Assembly (NCBI RefSeq): GCF_000328705.1
Contig: NC_019673.1
Location: 1,612,001-1,676,000 of the forward strand
Origin: Saccharothrix espanaensis DSM 44229
GTDB lineage: Bacteria; Actinomycetota; Actinomycetes; Mycobacteriales; Pseudonocardiaceae
Direction of reading: 5' to 3'
Length of the DNA: 64,000 bases
Positions 4,453 through 11,712 of this stretch are shown one piece after another (the first letter of the stretch is position 1; each line of letters begins with the position of its first letter). Under the pieces are notes generated by a model. The model was not told the DNA's origin and ran no database searches. It saw only the letters and a program-made list of their open reading frames with translations. Position numbers and translations under genes: made by a program.

Positions 4453-6153
4453 TCACGCGGCGGTGGCCGGCTGCCAGGCCGCCATCAGGTCCGCGTAGGT
4501 CGGGGACTCCGCCATCAGCCGCTCGTGCGTCCCGAGCAGCGGCGGCCCGCCGTCCATCACCAGCACCTGCCCGGCCCGCAGCGCCGACGACAGCCGGTGC
4601 GCGATCACCACCAGGATGCCGTCCCGCGCCGCGAACGCCCGCTCCACGACGGCCTCCGCCGCCGGGTCCAGGTTGGACGTCGCCTCGTCCAGGACCACCA
4701 CGTCCGCCGGGCACGCGTAGACCCGCGCCACCGCCAGCAACTGGGCCTCGCCCGCGGACAGGCTGCCGCCCGCGTGGCCCACCGACCCGTCGAGCCCGCC
4801 CAACCGCGCCACCACGTCCGCCGCGCCCACCGCCGTCACCGCGGCCAGCAGGTCGTCGTCGCCGGCCGTCGGCGCGAACAGCGCCAGGTTCTCCCGCACG
4901 GTCCCGGTGAACAGGTAGGTCTCCTGCGGCACCAGCGCGATCCGCGCGTGCCGCACGTCCGGCCGCACCTCGCGCACCGGGGCCCCGCCGAGCAGCACCG
5001 TCCCGGCCTGCGGGGCGACCAGCCCGGTGACCAGCCCGGCCAGCGTCGACTTGCCGATCCCGCTGGGCCCCACCACGGCCAGGTGCGCGCCGCGGGCCAG
5101 GTCCAGGTCGAGGTCGCGCACCACGGGCTCGGCGTGCTCGCCCCACCCGAACGTGACGCCGCGCAGCACCACCCCGCCCTCGCCCGGCACCAGGTCGCCG
5201 GCCTCCTCGGGCACCTCGGGCGCGGCCTCGGCGAGCCGCCGCAGCGCCACCGCCAGCCGCAGCACCACCGTGCTCGTGGTGTCCGCGAGCCGCCGCAGCG
5301 CGGGCTGCACGCTGGTGCTCAGGTAGACGACGGCGGCCAGCACCTCGCCGGCGGTGAGCGTGCCGGCGGCGACCATGCCGGGCGTGAGCACCAGCAGCAG
5401 CACCAGCGGCAGGAACCCGCCGACCGCGATCACGATGCCGCGCAGCGCCGTCGACCACGCCATCCGCACGGTGGCCCGCGCCTGCCGGTCGACCTGCCGC
5501 CCGACGTCCTCGGCGGCCCGGGACCGCCCGCCGCACGCGACGACGTCCCGCATCCCGAGCAGCACCGTGCCGGCCGCCTCGGCCGCGTCCTCGTCGGCCA
5601 TCACCAGCGCCCGCTGCCCGCGTGCCAGCGACGGCAGCAGCAGGCCGAACAGCACCAGCGCCGCCACCACGGGCAGCACCACCAGCCACGCCAGCGGGGA
5701 CACCGCGGTGGCCAGGCCGACCAGCGCGGCGGTGGTCGTCACGAGCAGCGCGCGGGCCTGGATGAGCAGTCCGGCGGTCGCGTCGCGCACCACCTCGACG
5801 TGCCGGGTGATCCGGGCGACCGCGCTCGCGTCCGGCTGCCGGCGGTGCGACCGGCCGTCGCGCAGGACGCCCCGCACGATCGCGGTGACCAGCCCGTCCC
5901 GCAACGGTTCCACCACGTCGCCGAGCCGGGTGAACACCTGCCGCAGCCCGAACCCGCCGAGCACCGCCAGCACCGCGAACGCCACCAGCCACGCCACGCC
6001 GGTCCGCACGTCGCCGACCGCGAACCCGCGGTCCACGGCCAGCCCGACCAGCCGGCCGCCCAGCAGCGCCGGCACGCCCTCCAGCACCGACCAGCCCAGC
6101 AGCGCCAGCACCGCGCGCCGCCGCCCGGCCAACGCCCGCAGGTAAGGACCCAT
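4453..6153 (-). CDS. ABC exporter half-transporter of the lanthipeptide operon (RamB/RamA-like)
   Basis: This 566-residue protein fuses a six-helix exporter membrane domain (about residues 10-300) to a nucleotide-binding domain. The latter has Walker A GPSGIGKST near residue 364, an atypical signature LSAGE near 466 and Walker B VVVLDEATSNLD near 484, followed by the switch histidine in IAHRLSS. No N-terminal C39 peptidase domain is present, so it should move peptide without cleaving a leader. The ATG at 6153 overlaps the stop of the preceding transporter (TGATG), showing tight coupling. With its partner it probably forms a heterodimer exporting the class III lanthipeptide. Confidence 0.9.
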   Translation of the reverse strand: MGPYLRALAGRRRAVLALLGWSVLEGVPALLGGRLVGLAVDRGFAVGDVRTGVAWLVAFAVLAVLGGFGLRQVFTRLGDVVEPLRDGLVTAIVRGVLRDGRSHRRQPDASAVARITRHVEVVRDATAGLLIQARALLVTTTAALVGLATAVSPLAWLVVLPVVAALVLFGLLLPSLARGQRALVMADEDAAEAAGTVLLGMRDVVACGGRSRAAEDVGRQVDRQARATVRMAWSTALRGIVIAVGGFLPLVLLLVLTPGMVAAGTLTAGEVLAAVVYLSTSVQPALRRLADTTSTVVLRLAVALRRLAEAAPEVPEEAGDLVPGEGGVVLRGVTFGWGEHAEPVVRDLDLDLARGAHLAVVGPSGIGKSTLAGLVTGLVAPQAGTVLLGGAPVREVRPDVRHARIALVPQETYLFTGTVRENLALFAPTAGDDDLLAAVTAVGAADVVARLGGLDGSVGHAGGSLSAGEAQLLAVARVYACPADVVVLDEATSNLDPAAEAVVERAFAARDGILVVIAHRLSSALRAGQVLVMDGGPPLLGTHERLMAESPTYADLMAAWQPATAA

Positions 6154-7745
6154 CAGCCGAACACCGCCCGGTACTCCGCGTTCTCCCACAGCGACAGGTG
6201 CGAGGCCATCGCGCGCACCCGGCCGTCTTCCAGCCACACCACGGCGTCCGCCCGGCGCGCGGTCGCGGCCCGGTGCGTCACAACCACCCGGGTCCGGCCC
6301 GGCAGCGCCGAGGCGATCGCTCGCTCGACAGCGGACTCGGTGACCGTGTCCAGGCTGGCCGTCGCGTCGTCGAGCACCAGCACCTGCGGGTCGCGGACCA
6401 CCGCCCGCGCCAGCCCGAGCCGTTGCGCCTCACCGCCGGACAGCGGCGTGTCGGCCATCGGCGTGTCGTAGCCGTCGGGCAGTCGCACCACCACGTCGTG
6501 CACCCGCACCGCCCGGCACGCCTCCTCGACCTCCGGCCGGCCCAGCGAGGTCCCGTAGGCCACGGTGTCCGCGACGGTCGCGCCGAGCAGCGCCGGCCGT
6601 TCGAACGCGTAGCCGACCGACCCGCCGCGCGCGACCCGCCCGGCCGAGGGCGCGGTCAGCCCGCCGATCACCGCCGCCAGCGCCGACTTGCCCGAGCCGG
6701 AGCGCCCGACCACCGCCAGGAACATCCCGGAGGGCACCAGCAGGTCCACGTCGTGCAGGGCGTCCGGCACGCACACCCCGCGCAGCTCCACCGCGCCGGG
6801 CGGCGCGTACCCGGGGGCGCCCGCCGCGACCGGCTCCTGCGCCAGCACCTCGTCGATCCGCCCGGCCGACGCGCGCGCCCGCTGCACGGCGGTCAGCACG
6901 GCCGCCTGGCCGACCACCGTCATGCCCAGGGCCGCGTAGGCCATGGCGGCCAGCACGTCACCGATGCTCAACCGCCCGGCCACCACGCCGAACCCGGCCG
7001 CGGTCAGCACCGCGAGCTCCACGGCGGGCAGCAGCAGACCGGCCCGCCAGATCATCTTCGCCTGGGTGCGCCACATCCCGACCCCGGCCGCGGCGAGCCG
7101 GGGCAGCGGCCGCAGCACGCGGTCCGCCTCCTGGTCGGCCCGACCGGACGCGGCGATCGTGCGCAGCCCGCCCACGGCGTCCAGCAGCCGCGCCGACAGC
7201 TCGCCGGACACCTCCTGGTAGGTGGCCACGTCGTCGGCGGTCAGCCGCAGGTGCGAGCGCACCAGCAGCAGCGCCAGCGGCACGCTCAGCAGGAACACCG
7301 CCGCCAGCCGCCAGTCCAGCAGCGTCAACGCCACCACCGCGCCGCCCGCGGTCATCACGGTGATCCCCAGGTTGACCAGCAGCACCGCGAAGTTCCCGGC
7401 GATCGCGCTGTCCCCGGTCAGCCGGCTCACCGCGTCACCGGCCTCGAACCGGCCCGGGTGCCCGAGCCCGACCAGCTTGCCGATCACCTTGCGGCGCAGG
7501 AACGCGGTGCCGCGCGCGGCGATCGCCGCCGCCAGCACCACGCCGATCGCGTCGCCCACCACCTCCACGCCCACCAGGCCGGCCAGCCACAGCACGGTCC
7601 CGGGGTCGAGCCGCCCGCCCAGCGCCATGTCCACCGCGCCCGCGAGCGCGGTCGGCAGCAGCAGCCCGGCGGTGGTGGCCAGCAGGGCGTTGCCGGCCAG
7701 CAGCAGCCAGCGCGGATCGCGCAGGACGACCGTTCTCAGCAGCAT
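6153..7745 (-). CDS. ABC exporter half-transporter of the lanthipeptide operon (RamA/RamB-like)
   Basis: The 530-residue product has an N-terminal exporter membrane domain (about 1-300) and a C-terminal ATPase. The ATPase shows Walker A GRSGSGKSA near residue 351, signature LSGGEAQ near 435 and Walker B VLVLDDATASLD. In the last motif the residue after Walker B is Asp rather than the usual catalytic Glu, so this ATP site may be degenerate, as in many heterodimeric exporters. The ATG at 7745 has GGAG six bases upstream; ATG codons at 7772 and 7775 are possible but lack a good ribosome site. It follows the precursor gene after a 154-bp gap with a hairpin. Confidence 0.88.
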   Translation of the reverse strand: MLLRTVVLRDPRWLLLAGNALLATTAGLLLPTALAGAVDMALGGRLDPGTVLWLAGLVGVEVVGDAIGVVLAAAIAARGTAFLRRKVIGKLVGLGHPGRFEAGDAVSRLTGDSAIAGNFAVLLVNLGITVMTAGGAVVALTLLDWRLAAVFLLSVPLALLLVRSHLRLTADDVATYQEVSGELSARLLDAVGGLRTIAASGRADQEADRVLRPLPRLAAAGVGMWRTQAKMIWRAGLLLPAVELAVLTAAGFGVVAGRLSIGDVLAAMAYAALGMTVVGQAAVLTAVQRARASAGRIDEVLAQEPVAAGAPGYAPPGAVELRGVCVPDALHDVDLLVPSGMFLAVVGRSGSGKSALAAVIGGLTAPSAGRVARGGSVGYAFERPALLGATVADTVAYGTSLGRPEVEEACRAVRVHDVVVRLPDGYDTPMADTPLSGGEAQRLGLARAVVRDPQVLVLDDATASLDTVTESAVERAIASALPGRTRVVVTHRAATARRADAVVWLEDGRVRAMASHLSLWENAEYRAVFG

Positions 7746-7844
7746 TCGGTGCTCCAGGCGGGCGGGGCGCATCATGGGCGAGGGCCCGACGCCGGCCACC
7801 CCGGGTGTGAGCCGGGAGGCCGTCGCCGGACCCTCGTGGGACCG

Positions 7845-7877
7845 GGTGAGCGGCGCACTTCGCCTGCGCCGCTCACC
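7845..7877 (-). terminator. 13-bp perfect hairpin between lanthipeptide precursor and transporter genes
   Basis: GGTGAGCGGCGCA (7845-7857) pairs exactly with TGCGCCGCTCACC (7865-7877) across a 7-base loop. It sits 22 bases after the precursor stop and 100 bases before the first transporter start. No T-run follows, so partial termination or 3-prime-end protection of the precursor message is more likely than complete termination. Comparable hairpins after RiPP precursor genes raise precursor mRNA over downstream genes. Confidence 0.65.
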
Positions 7878-7899
7878 TCGTTCTCGTCCGCGGGCGAGA

Positions 7900-8061
7900 T
7901 CAGCAGAGCAGCAGGCTCGCGGAGGAGTGGCTGCACGGGAGCAGCAGGGAGACGCTGGACGCGGTCGTGCTGCCGCCACCGCCGCTGCTGCCGCCGCTGG
8001 CCATCGCGTTGGACTGGACCTCGGGGGTGTCCATGTCCTGAAGGTCGAGGATGAACTCCAT
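7900..8061 (-). CDS. Class III lanthipeptide (SapB-like) precursor peptide
   Basis: A 53-residue precursor starts at ATG 8061, with AAGGAG five bases upstream. The leader MEFILDLQDMDTPEVQ carries the ILDLQ motif, matching the LxLQ-type recognition helix of class III leaders such as RamS (NLFDLQSMET). The core region contains two Ser-x2-Ser-x(3-4)-Cys units, SSVSLLLPC and SSASLLLC, the pattern that gives (methyl)labionin or lanthionine rings. The LLLC ends closely resemble the SapB core. Between leader and core lies an unusual Gly/Ser-rich stretch (about residues 22-31). It lies between lanKC and the exporters, exactly where ramS lies in ramCSAB. Confidence 0.92.
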   Translation of the reverse strand: MEFILDLQDMDTPEVQSNAMASGGSSGGGGSTTASSVSLLLPCSHSSASLLLC

Positions 8062-8106
8062 GTCGACTCCTTGGTGCTCGTCGGGGGGAACTGTGGGGGA
8101 AACGGG

Positions 8107-10638
8107 TTACTGCAACCGGCCCGCGAGGGCCGGGGCTGTGAGGAACGGCAGTGCGGGCACGCCGTCCACGGCGGACGCGAGCGCGAGCAGCACGCCCGCC
8201 CCGCCGGTGTTGAGGTCCATCGACAGCCGGCGCAGCTGGACGCCCGGGAACGCCAGCCCTTCCTGGTAGGGCACGGCGTGCCAGGCCAGCGCCGACAGGT
8301 GCCGGTCGACCGCCTCGCGGGTCCCGCCCGCCTGGGCGAGCGTGGCCAGCAGGCCCGCCCGGCCCACCATGAACGCGGGCTGGATGACGAACTCGCAGGT
8401 CAGCCCGGAGACCAGTTCGGGCAGCCGGGCCGAGCACGCGGCGTCCGGCGCGACCCGGGCGAACTCGTCGAGCGCCAGCGCGATCCCGGCGCTGCCGATG
8501 CCCACGTAGGGCAGGGTGCGCAGGGTGCCGTCGCGGACCTGGGTCGAGCCGTCCAGCGCGGTCATGCACTCGGCGAGGTCGCGTTCCAGCGCGCGCTCGG
8601 CGTGGTCGAGCCACCGCCGTTCGCCGGTCAGCTCGTGCAGCCGGGTGAACAGCAGCGCCGGGCCGGACCAGCCGTGCAGCAGGCCCGCGCGGGCCTTGTC
8701 GCCGGGCGGCGGCGCGTCGGCGAGCATCCCGACCAGCCGGTCGCCCAGGTCCAGCGCCCGGTCGGCGAACGACTCGTCGTCCCGGCGCACCGCGAAGTGC
8801 AGCAGGTTCAGCGCGACCCCGGACAGGCCCGCGTTGAGGCCGTGGTCCTTGGTGTCGGGCAGCAGCTCGGCGTACTCGCGGACCAGCTCGTCGGCCTCGT
8901 CGTGGTAGCCGAAGTTCTCCAGCACGTGGGCGATCCCGTGCGCGCCGGTGTAGAAACCGGGCTCCTTCGGCGGGTCGCGGCGCAGCGAGTCCAGCAGCCA
9001 CCGCTCGTGCTCGGGGAACCGGCCCTCGCCGGCGACGTCGAGCGCGTGCAGCACACCGGCCGCCCCGTAGGCGAAGCACGCGCCGCCCACCTCGAACTGC
9101 TCCACGTCACCGGGGAACAGCCGGTCGTGGCGCTGCGGCGTGGCGCTGGCCAGGATCGCCGCGGCGATCGACTTGCGCACGACCGCCCAGTCCGGCGTCG
9201 GCTCGTCCAGCGCCGTCGACACCCGCACCGGCGGGTCGACGCGCGGCGTGAGCACCTCCACGATCCGGTCGCAGTAGTCGTCCGGCAGGCCGAACCGCCG
9301 GCGGATGAACTCCACGTGGTGGCGCAGCTTCGCGGGGGACAGCTCGATCACCGCGTTGAGCGGCAGGAACACGTACAGCCGCAGCGCGGCCAGCGCGTAG
9401 TCGTCGATCTCGAACCCGGAGCGGTCCGGCGGGGCCTGGAAACCGGGGGAGCCCAGCGTTGGCCTGCGGTCCTCCTCGACCCGGAACGCGAGCTCGAAGT
9501 CGATCAGCGACACCGCGTCGTCGTCGTCCACGAGCACGTTCAACGGGTGCAGGTCGCTGAACACCACGCCGCGCGCGTGCACGTCGGCCACGATCCGCTC
9601 GACGTCGGCCACGATCGCCAGCGCCCGCGCGGTGTACTCGGACAGGTCGCCGACGTCGTAGTGGGTCAACGGGTAGTGCTGGCCCAGCCACTGGCCGATC
9701 GGCCGGCCCGGCACCGGTTGCATCGCGAAGAACTCGTGCTCCCACGCGCTGAACAGCTCGTGGGCCGCGGGCACCCCGGGCACGCCGGACAGCAGGGTGA
9801 GGATGTCGTGCTCGCGGCGCAGCCGGGCCACCGCGTCGACGTTGTCCCGGTCCAGCCCGGCGTGCGGTCGGGCCTCCTTCAGCACCACGTCCGCGCCGTC
9901 GGACTTGCGGGTCGCCCGGTACACGCCGCCGCCGTTGGAGAAGTGCAGCGACTGCGTCACCCGGTAGGGGAACGAGTCGGCGTCACCGCCCTTGCGGGCC
10001 GCGAGGTGTTCTTCCAGGCACTTCGGCAGGGTGATCCAGTCGGGCACCCAGAAGGTCGGTTTGCGCTGGTCGGGAACCAGTTCGCCGGTCGCGCCCTCGA
10101 TCGCCAGGACGCGTCTGCCGTCGACTTCCAGCCACTGCTCGACAAAGCCGCCGTAACGCACGAACAACGGTCCCGCGGCGTACCGGAGATCGCTCAGGAT
10201 GTACGCGCCGGGCTGACCCGCGAGCAGTTCGTCGAGCTCGCGCAGGGTCTTTTCCAACTGCGCCTCGTCGGCCGGGTAGATGGTGATCAGCTTGCCGCTC
10301 GCCTCGCGCGGGGCGTATTTCGAGTTGCGGGCCAGCACGATCGACCGGGTGCGCAGGTACTTGAACGGGATGCGCCGCGCGACCAGGTGCTCGTAGCAGG
10401 CCAGGAGCACCTCGCCGGCGTTGCCGACGGTGGCCGAGACGTGGATCTTCCAGCCCTGGCGGGGCAGCACCGCGCCGGCCGGCTGGAGGTAGCGCCAGAT
10501 CGTGAGATCGGCCCGCGCCCAGTCCGCCGGAAGCTCCGGGAGCACCTGCGAAAAATCATCGGCAGCGATTTCCGTGGAGCTTTGCACGTCGTAGAAGAGA
10601 CGGTCCGCGAAGCAGTAAGCCTCATAGCGGAGATCCAC
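8107..10638 (-). CDS. lanKC: Class III lanthionine synthetase LanKC (RamC-like)
   Basis: The 843-residue protein has the three-part class III layout. An N-terminal phospho-Ser/Thr lyase-like region (about 1-210) begins VDLRYEAYCFADRLFYD, the hallmark of RamC/LabKC. A Ser/Thr kinase domain follows, with Lys in VVLKEARPH near 252, catalytic SDLHPLN near 361 and DFE replacing DFG. The C-terminal LanC-like cyclase (about 520-843) has GHGIAHVLEN near 567 and LLHGWSGPAL near 652. The zinc ligands of true LanC (the CHG and WCYG type cysteines) are absent, as expected for class III. GTG at 10638 was chosen because GGGAGG lies 9 bases upstream. It should phosphorylate, dehydrate and cyclise the 53-residue precursor encoded 45 bp downstream. 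Confidence 0.95.
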   Translation of the reverse strand: MDLRYEAYCFADRLFYDVQSSTEIAADDFSQVLPELPADWARADLTIWRYLQPAGAVLPRQGWKIHVSATVGNAGEVLLACYEHLVARRIPFKYLRTRSIVLARNSKYAPREASGKLITIYPADEAQLEKTLRELDELLAGQPGAYILSDLRYAAGPLFVRYGGFVEQWLEVDGRRVLAIEGATGELVPDQRKPTFWVPDWITLPKCLEEHLAARKGGDADSFPYRVTQSLHFSNGGGVYRATRKSDGADVVLKEARPHAGLDRDNVDAVARLRREHDILTLLSGVPGVPAAHELFSAWEHEFFAMQPVPGRPIGQWLGQHYPLTHYDVGDLSEYTARALAIVADVERIVADVHARGVVFSDLHPLNVLVDDDDAVSLIDFELAFRVEEDRRPTLGSPGFQAPPDRSGFEIDDYALAALRLYVFLPLNAVIELSPAKLRHHVEFIRRRFGLPDDYCDRIVEVLTPRVDPPVRVSTALDEPTPDWAVVRKSIAAAILASATPQRHDRLFPGDVEQFEVGGACFAYGAAGVLHALDVAGEGRFPEHERWLLDSLRRDPPKEPGFYTGAHGIAHVLENFGYHDEADELVREYAELLPDTKDHGLNAGLSGVALNLLHFAVRRDDESFADRALDLGDRLVGMLADAPPPGDKARAGLLHGWSGPALLFTRLHELTGERRWLDHAERALERDLAECMTALDGSTQVRDGTLRTLPYVGIGSAGIALALDEFARVAPDAACSARLPELVSGLTCEFVIQPAFMVGRAGLLATLAQAGGTREAVDRHLSALAWHAVPYQEGLAFPGVQLRRLSMDLNTGGAGVLLALASAVDGVPALPFLTAPALAGRLQ

Positions 10639-11139
10639 CGGAATTCGCCTCCCTGTAATTTGTGGGACCGGCATATTCCCGCATGTGAGTGCACTGGAGG
10701 CCAATCCGCCAGATCGGGGAGCCGACTAGGCCGTCCGTGCTGCCCGAGACGGCCCGAACAGGTACTTTGCGTTGTGTCGGATGCAGCCGAACCACCCGTT
10801 TGCCAGGTTTGCCGCTGGGCTATTCGGAGTCCTTGGGGGAGCGCCGCTAAACGGCACGGAATCGTTCTGCTTTCCCCGTGCGGCCGGCCTGCGGAATCGG
10901 CTGAACTTCCGCTGTTTTGCGGTTCCGGTCACCCGCCGTGGTGGTCTAGGCCTATCAGGGGGTTACTCGGCTATCAGGTGTGGTCGGCGTCCGATGGGGT
11001 GTGGATCAGGGGCCGAAATTCGGGTTTAACCCATTGTTCACCAAACTCGCGCCCCATCCCGACCGCACGGATCGGGTTTCGCCCTGGGCTGATCGGGTGG
11101 TCAATCATGCGTTCGGCCGCATATGGCACGCTGATAGGT
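10639..11139. other. Regulatory intergenic region between lanKC and a divergent secreted-protein gene
   Basis: This 501-bp gap is more AT-rich than its surroundings and holds no convincing gene. It contains CTATCAGG at 10952-10959 and again at 10971-10978 (19 bases apart, same orientation) and its inverse CTGATAGG at 11131-11138. It also has the 11-bp palindrome GGGTTTAACCC at 11022-11032. These are candidate binding sites for a regulator of lanKC or of the gene at 11140. No ramR-like response regulator gene lies nearby. Confidence 0.45.
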
Positions 11140-11712
11140 GTGTCGTCCCGGCTGCTGCTGCCCGCGGTGCTGGTGGTCGCCGCGCTGACCGCGGCCACCG
11201 GCGCACTGGCCCGCGAGGTCTACCAACGCCCCGCGCAGGCGGTCGGCGACCGCATCGCCCTGCCGTCCGACTCGTCCCCCGTGCCGCGCGCCGACCAGCC
11301 CGGCAGCCCCACCGTGCAGCGCAGCCCGGACGCCGCCCTGCACCCGGACGGCGAACGCGTCCGAGCCCTGCTCCAGCGCTACTTCGACGCCATCAACGCC
11401 CGCGACTACGACCAGTGGGCCACCACCGTCACCACCGAACGGGTCGCCCGCACCCCGCGCGCCCGCTGGGAGTCCGACTACGAGACCACCCGCAACGGCA
11501 CCATCCTGGTGCACCGCGTGGAAACCGTGTCACCGACCCGGGTGCGCGTGCTGATGACGTTCGTCAGCACCCAGGCCCTGGCCAAGGCCCCCGCCGACCT
11601 GCAAGCCGACTGCATCCGCTGGCGGGTCGTCTACCCCGTCCAAGAGGAAGCAGGCAACCTGCGCGTCGACTTCGGCACCGAGGGCTCCAGCTCCCAGTTC
11701 ACCGCCTGCTGA
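11140..11712 (+). CDS. Membrane-anchored or secreted protein with an NTF2-like outer domain (tentative)
   Basis: The 190-residue product has an N-terminal hydrophobic segment (about residues 4-22, LLLPAVLVVAALTAATGALA), a Pro-rich spacer, and a soluble domain starting ERVRALLQRYFDAINARDY. That start is typical of NTF2/SnoaL-like folds (a helix with YFDAINARDYDQW). Two cysteines near the C-terminus (LQADCIRW and the final FTAC) could pair. GTG at 11140 was chosen because the signal starts right after it; an in-frame ATG at 11107 is an alternative. Function unknown; the fold assignment is an inference from the pattern. Confidence 0.65.
   Translation: MSSRLLLPAVLVVAALTAATGALAREVYQRPAQAVGDRIALPSDSSPVPRADQPGSPTVQRSPDAALHPDGERVRALLQRYFDAINARDYDQWATTVTTERVARTPRARWESDYETTRNGTILVHRVETVSPTRVRVLMTFVSTQALAKAPADLQADCIRWRVVYPVQEEAGNLRVDFGTEGSSSQFTAC

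Follow-up and report, generated by a model that had tools for sequence, protein, structure and literature searches.

A SapB/AmfS-family class III lanthipeptide operon in Saccharothrix espanaensis, with a conserved hairpin between its precursor and exporter genes

Introduction

SapB of Streptomyces coelicolor and AmfS of S. griseus are made by operons, ramCSAB and amfTSAB, that share one gene order: synthetase, precursor, exporter, exporter (PMC13380574). The SapB/AmfS family now exceeds 4,000 sequences (PMC13380574, 2026). Among its members is the precursor of durhapeptin, from the dur cluster of S. durhamensis, which carries two tandem SxxSxxxC units like those described below. A durhapeptin variant induced aerial hyphae in some species, a Leu-to-Thr exchange abolished the effect, and durhapeptin was inactive on its own producer (PMC13380574). 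A figure legend for the dur cluster points to a protease-domain transporter, and a response regulator gene flanks the cluster. Noursin-type (LanKC-Hbt) clusters bring a class III synthetase into the genus Saccharothrix itself, through TamKC of S. tamanrassetensis. They differ in having one Cys, a His-butyrine crosslink and, in the noursin cluster, an S9 peptidase gene. S. tamanrassetensis also has a SapB-type locus resembling the one that is our subject here.

That locus lies in the window, by which we mean the whole 64,000-nucleotide stretch analysed: bases 1612001-1676000 of one 9,360,653-base contig of Saccharothrix espanaensis DSM 44229. We describe the operon, its relatives, and a hairpin between its precursor and exporter genes that recurs, with compensatory changes, across the Pseudonocardiaceae.

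The operon

Four open frames and a set of upstream blocks make up the locus:

10670..10711, minus strand: promoter-like blocks TGGCGGATTGGC and TGCGGGAATA, from an alignment of the lanKC upstream regions of 22 genus loci
8107..10638, minus strand: lanKC (ramC/amfT-like), class III lanthipeptide synthetase, lyase-kinase-cyclase, 843 aa
7900..8061, minus strand: lanA (ramS/amfS-like), 53-residue precursor: ILDLQ leader, Gly/Ser linker, two S-x2-S-x(3-4)-C units
6153..7775, minus strand: abcA (ramA-like), exporter half whose nucleotide site is degenerate; start probably at 7745
4453..6153, minus strand: abcB (ramB-like), exporter half whose Walker B Glu is canonical and whose signature motif is degenerate

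An earlier note on this DNA had identified a SapB-like class III operon here, complete and with its genes in the ramCSAB order. That is correct, and the boundaries are the same; the strand, which that note left unnamed, is minus. An annotated Streptomyces plasmid has the equal order of synthetase, precursor and two ABC exporters on a single strand. lanKC starts with the GTG at 10638, downstream of GGGAGG, and stops at 8107. The gap to lanA, whose start has AAGGAG upstream, is 45 nt. From lanA to the abcA frame the gap is 124 nt, or 154 nt with a start at 7745, and abcA and abcB overlap by one base. Translation of abcA probably begins at the ATG at 7745, which has CTGGAG upstream. No Shine-Dalgarno-like sequence precedes 7775, and in several relatives the frame from the upstream ATGATG equivalent to 7775 meets a stop.

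The earlier note saw neither a regulator nor a leader peptidase gene in the operon, and we too found none inside it. A Pfam scan of the operon and ten flanking frames gave no linked RamR-type response regulator; the flanking frames that matched were DUF3145, ketoacyl synthase, PP-binding, acyltransferase and a PucR-type regulator. One review places ramR in streptomycetes only. Compared with SapB and AmfS, then, the operon has no ramR-like gene, no TTA codon in any of its four genes, and a hairpin of other sequence. Compared with the dur cluster, it contains neither the protease-domain transporter nor the response regulator gene.

Part of the promoter-like blocks, GGCGGATTGGC, recurs in a set of nine Amycolatopsis-group loci. 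Further genus-conserved blocks lie upstream of lanKC (window 10639-10830): AAACnTnGC...CGGGTG and AC-N5-GT. AC-N5-GT is BldD-like, and too short for us to claim a BldD site from the alignment. A sigma-70 consensus scan returned no promoter-like site. A simple terminator scan returned a single site, on the plus strand inside lanKC and at background level.

The precursor and its core

The lanA product (MEFILDLQDMDTPEVQSNAMASGGSSGGGGSTTASSVSLLLPCSHSSASLLLC) has two core units, SSVSLLLPC (S-x2-S-x4-C) and SSASLLLC (S-x2-S-x3-C). With SapB and AmfS it shares the leader motif, the two S-x2-S-xn-C units and a match to curated family models: 37.3 bits against Pfam RamS (PF19402, cut-off 24.3) and 46.6 bits against NCBIfam SapB/AmfS (NF033212, cut-off 25). 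Sequence and models thus bear out the 53-residue precursor with an ILDLQ leader and two core units that the earlier note had recognized. Its description of the precursor as previously unlisted is weak, since the NCBI SapB/AmfS model already matches the gene; the peptide adds one more member to an established family. Both core units are present in all 22 genus precursors listed. The curated-model scores, together with matches in 22 of 25 genus genomes, argue that the operon is no product of chance.

Precursor frames were obtained for 48 of 49 named loci (Actinocrispum gave none). The Gly/Ser stretch before the core had been read as unlike RamS and so as the sign of a distinct product. We rejected it as the mark of a new product class, because Gly-rich pre-core stretches are found repeatedly in the family. 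In the 22 genus precursors the stretch is mostly AMASGG(SS)GGGG(G)STTAS, and two of them carry HH/N variants. In Amycolatopsis, Lentzea and others it is rich in Gly and His and differs in length. Among class-level members with a near-SapB core some have GGGGG runs before the core and others have few Gly; a Gly-rich example from a class-set genome outside the Pseudonocardiaceae reads ...GELGHGGGGGSRASLLLCGDSS. The linker, longer here than in SapB and AmfS, is a variable spacer whose length drifts while the core is kept.

It is the core that departs from RamS. Ring 1 has a four-residue second loop (SLLLPC), the joint between the rings is CSHS(T/S), and nothing follows the last Cys. These traits are common to most of the Saccharothrix, Actinosynnema, Lentzea and Umezawaea members examined; the fuller pattern TAS(N/S)xSLLLPCSHS(T/S)xSLxxC describes most of the genus Saccharothrix, Lentzea and Umezawaea. 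A few Saccharothrix carry variants (LLGV, LLGCGAHS, LLSCRNHS, LFSCWNNS). For the window's peptide with four dehydrations, the predicted monoisotopic neutral mass is 1914.970 if the product begins at ASSV and 2204.097 if it begins at STTASS; its N-terminus would probably be ragged.

The synthetase and the exporters

The earlier note had asked for family searches of precursor and synthetase, and lanKC, like lanA, exceeds its curated cut-off: 1044.5 bits against the class III LanKC model NF038151 (cut-off 575). Against the class IV model it falls below the cut-off (375.6 against 650 bits). Its Pfam domains are RamC_N (251.9 bits), Pkinase and LANC_like. At the zinc-ligand positions of the cyclase we read Gly, Met and Val, in an alignment to the solved ThurKC (residue positions from PMC10604976). 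The protein thus has the lyase, kinase and zinc-ligand-free cyclase domains of a class III LanKC. We aligned 39 synthetases from 71 loci tried, a strict motif filter having removed the rest. Cys stands at none of the three zinc-ligand positions in any of the 39, and His at the last of them in one. All 39 keep the kinase Lys, the Asp of the catalytic loop and that of DFE. The closest relatives of lanKC are from Saccharothrix species, at no more than 85% identity.

Changing Asp771 of ThurKC to Ala cost the enzyme its cyclization activity (PMC10604976). The equivalent residue is Val in the window's lanKC and Leu in 35 of the 39 aligned synthetases, and so the synthetases of this branch seem to close their rings without it. 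What kind of ring they close is hard to predict from a synthetase sequence (PMC13380574).

Both exporters match ABC_membrane and ABC_tran above cut-off, at 540 or 530 aa for abcA and 566 aa for abcB, and Pfam lists a peptidase domain in neither. The earlier note called them leaderless-peptide exporters. Two ABC exporters there are, and the wording is better put as exporters without a leader-peptidase domain. We counted residues in the best tblastn match at 80 of 81 loci, a few genomes being counted twice. In abcA the catalytic Glu is Asp in 76 of the 80, and the Q-loop Gln is Glu in 65. In abcB the catalytic Glu is kept in 78 of 80, and the signature is non-canonical, its third residue being Ala in 58 of 80. 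The two halves thus look like partners in a heterodimer, one of whose ATP sites is degenerate.

Distribution and descent

Precursor and synthetase genes occur in 22 of the 25 genus genomes. The same three genomes (G006, G014, G024) have neither; their site is empty and the flanks adjacent, with about 90-260 bp separating the DUF3145 gene from the counterpart of window frame 11140-11712. Beyond the genus, the DUF3145 gene adjoins 48 of 70 loci (a count that includes some genomes twice), namely every Saccharothrix, Actinosynnema, Umezawaea and Lentzea locus. In 46 of these 48 the FabF side is present as well, and the other two are loci cut short. The remaining 22, from Amycolatopsis and others, sit at other sites, none beside DUF3145. 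Within the clade the operon has apparently been inherited vertically. In wider samples the SapB/AmfS model matches 143 of 297 family genomes and 51 of 394 class genomes.

At the same chromosomal site Umezawaea beigongshangensis has a near-SapB core, SRASLLLCGDSSLSLTTCN, and in a quick LanKC tree, with long branches flagged, its synthetase groups with that of Goodfellowiella (57 of 82 tblastn segments; one short segment dropped and 24 rows thinned by hand). The distance of its flanking genes from the window is within 4 identity points of that of U. endophytica's, while its operon genes are 7-11 points further away than U. endophytica's. Tree and distances suggested that a version with a SapB core had replaced the entire operon. 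The AU test lends this no support: placing the synthetase in the Saccharothrix-Umezawaea clade is not rejected (p 0.161). Either way, related lineages have two types of core at a single locus, which suggests that both serve the same purpose.

Some observations on synthetase genes stand apart. In one Saccharothrix (L129, G005:C4:304072-304634) a TGA splits the gene in its N-terminal domain, either a pseudogene or an assembly error. Several genus genomes, G020 and G021 among them, have extra class III synthetase genes away from the conserved locus; G020 has up to five RamC_N matches, one of them partial. The window's own genome has two 442-aa LanC-like frames with identical model scores, at G000:C1:6312164-6313276 (+) and 6407203-6408315 (-). 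Lying about 95 kb apart on opposite strands, they suggest an inverted duplication.

A hairpin between precursor and exporters

The stretch between lanA and abcA holds three elements:

7845..7877, minus strand: lanA-abcA hairpin, a 13-bp perfect stem (GGTGAGCGGCGCA / TGCGCCGCTCACC) with a 7-nt loop, GGCGAAG
7779..7836, minus strand: second predicted stem-loop just upstream of abcA, weaker and less conserved
7766..7776, minus strand: conserved block CATGATGCGCC, between hairpin and abcA

The earlier note made no mention of a hairpin here. It begins 22 nt past the lanA stop codon. Shuffling the 150 nt after lanA 1500 times gave no perfect stem longer than 12 bp, against the 13 bp observed. The minimum-energy fold of 7700-8060, with a z of -3.50 for the whole stretch, shows the second stem-loop; some relatives have a strong, perfect second stem, which the window lacks. 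The CATGATGCGCC block is exact in 14 of 22 genus loci and present as CAT[GC]ATG[CG]G in 21 of 22; variants occur elsewhere, such as CATTTTGCC in Amycolatopsis. The block is unlikely to be coding, because its frame meets stops in several relatives.

Searching the 25 genus genomes for the core pattern GAGCGGCGCA-N7-TGCGCCGCTC, with up to one mismatch allowed, gave exactly one site, free of mismatches, in each of the 22 operon-bearing genomes; the three that lack the operon have no site. Each site starts 25-33 nt past the precursor match. A reversed pattern, run as a control, matched in one genome. Over a broader set the element follows the precursor frame in 62 of 79 loci. The 17 without it are 15 class-set loci outside the family, L069, and L211, where the script picked a wrong frame and in whose genome (G046) the model matches weakly close to the precursor.

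We aligned 54 of the 62 rows, the eight omitted being identical in sequence to kept rows. Among 53 distinct rows, both sides have changed at 10 of 17 pairs, and 92.7% of pairing cells are complementary, against 30-55% when the arms are slid. Shuffles never reach the observed value in four of five measures; in the fifth, further pair types, 125 of 500 do. The outer pairs, notably 9-47, 12-44 and 14-42, carry the independent weight, because the inner arms belonged to the motif by which the sites were selected. Pairing is imperfect even so, with 8-48 and 10-46 unpaired in 22 and 11 of 53 rows.

A covariance model finds the element in 117 of 297 family genomes (E <=0.01). In the class sample 3 of 394 genomes match at E <=1e-4, one of them the window's own. 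Among the matches listed, 93 of 100 distinct model sites fall 16-74 nt after a SapB/AmfS match, with opposite-strand copies merged and the strand of the element ignored; among matches listed on both sides, 57 of 150 precursor sites have no hairpin match. We examined four of the seven stray sites. The G130 site lies by a divergent 44-aa precursor-like frame (L250:5580-5714, minus strand), MENVLALQGLESAPGCCGDPCDHGCGHGCDHIWISVILGGGVCL (MENVLALQGLES...), itself beside a LanKC gene and absent among the family-model matches listed. For G275 and G160 the fetched stretch contains no synthetase or exporter homologue, and near one of the G197 sites there is a distant ABC match alone.

Outside the family the picture is similar in form and different in sequence. 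Nine of 15 class-set SapB-type loci have a perfect stem of at least 13 bp, of other sequence, after the precursor; six do not. A shuffle test on 13 of the 15 (L207 and L208, both without a 13-bp stem, were omitted) found such stems in 9 of 13 loci and in 0 of 1040 shuffles. A hairpin after the precursor gene is thus a frequent habit of SapB-type operons, its sequence nearly frozen in the Pseudonocardiaceae.

Rfam gave a single match, at E 0.26 and far under the gathering score. Titles and the starts of abstracts, in a library with few subscription journals, yielded no report of a ramS-ramA or lanthipeptide-operon hairpin or terminator; older papers on ram transcription may describe one. Passages of PMC12096830 and PMC8079986 mention no intercistronic hairpin in lanthipeptide operons.

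What the hairpin may do

Read most simply, the hairpin would be a partial terminator or a protector of the mRNA 3' end. We infer a cis-acting RNA element that would hold precursor expression above that of the exporters. Lantibiotic operons such as that of nisin have intercistronic partial terminators after their precursor genes, which share with the hairpin a position between the precursor gene and downstream genes. Unlike those terminators, this hairpin keeps its stem sequence and its 7-nt loop length across a bacterial family. No T-run follows it in the window, where the simple terminator scan did not report it; most Saccharothrix copies are likewise without a clear T-run, and Amycolatopsis copies have a T-richer tail. 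It may have a specific binding partner, as its frozen inner arms and its asymmetric, often conserved loop hint. A tentative proposal, which we hold to be about as open to failure as to success and perhaps a little more so, is that Pseudonocardiaceae SapB-type operons have a dedicated cis-RNA element: a core GAGCGGCRYA-N7-TRYGCCGCTC, 16-74 nt after the precursor match, then a CATGATGCGCC-like block. It would set precursor against exporter expression, with a specific nuclease or RNA-binding protein as the probable agent, and perhaps in place of the missing RamR.

The rival we took most seriously, though we think it unlikely, gives RNA no part: the site would be a palindrome in the DNA, to which a dimeric protein binds that regulates the exporter genes. 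The inner 10-base arms are almost fixed, beyond what a plain terminator needs (though they were part of the selection motif), paired changes would be expected of any palindrome, and an A-C mismatch at pair 22-34 is kept in 13 rows. Yet the outer pairs vary by lineage and stay complementary (columns 9-47, 10-46, 12-44 and 14-42), and the spacer is asymmetric and often conserved, reading GNCGAAG in 30 of 54 rows. The stems of other sequence found at the same place outside the family also tell against a palindrome. A passive remnant or mobile repeat without a role in the operon, to which the 7 of 100 distinct model matches away from a precursor site (among those listed; three in G197) might point, is very unlikely given one exact core site in every operon-bearing genus genome and none in the others, and given that the stray G130 site adjoins a synthetase gene with a divergent precursor-like frame.

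The product and its role

Taking the locus whole, we think it likely that the operon makes and exports a class III lanthipeptide of the SapB/AmfS family, that its product is a resident, surface-active morphogen, and that the RNA hairpin favours precursor mRNA. LanKC would bind the ILDLQ leader, phosphorylate and then eliminate the core serines, and, needing no zinc, close two rings of the Lan or Lab type. Export would fall to a heterodimer of the two ABC proteins, one ATP site degenerate and one canonical, and a protease encoded elsewhere would remove the leader, with the Gly/Ser stretch serving as a flexible spacer. The hairpin would act on the transcript, as partial terminator or 3'-end protector, to leave precursor mRNA in excess of exporter mRNA. 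The product is most likely a hydrophobic two-ring morphogen that would help aerial growth by its surface activity, as SapB does.

Could it be an antimicrobial or some other competitive lanthipeptide instead? Class III lanthipeptides have several activities, antibacterial ones among them, and the strain's genome paper lists two putative lantibiotic clusters, one of which is perhaps this operon (PMC3469384). We consider it improbable, for patchy antibiotic clusters do not behave as this locus does, which in four genera keeps to a single site next to fatty-acid synthesis genes and has a core nearly fixed in the genus. In passing, we noticed no immunity gene. Such genus-wide conservation favours a resident morphogen or surfactant over a sporadic antibiotic: the apparently vertical inheritance beside fatty-acid synthesis genes and the nearly fixed hydrophobic two-ring core point the same way. 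There are counter-points: three genus members live without the operon, and the operon has no ramR-like gene.

Nor is another surfactant obvious. A chaplin model has no match in the window's genome. It passes the cut-off in 19 of 25 genus genomes at 22-30 bits, and all but one of the matches listed lie within frames of more than 1,000 aa.

The hairpin offers a concrete target, single-copy within the genus, for learning how such operons keep a small precursor in excess. Its model may help to find precursors that escape protein models, as a DNA-level marker of unusual ones. The peptide itself adds to the variety of SapB-type cores on record and shows them, apparently through vertical descent, across an entire clade of actinomycetes other than streptomycetes. 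Chaplins are not obvious in that clade, and so it would allow the role of a lanthipeptide surfactant in aerial growth to be tested outside Streptomyces.
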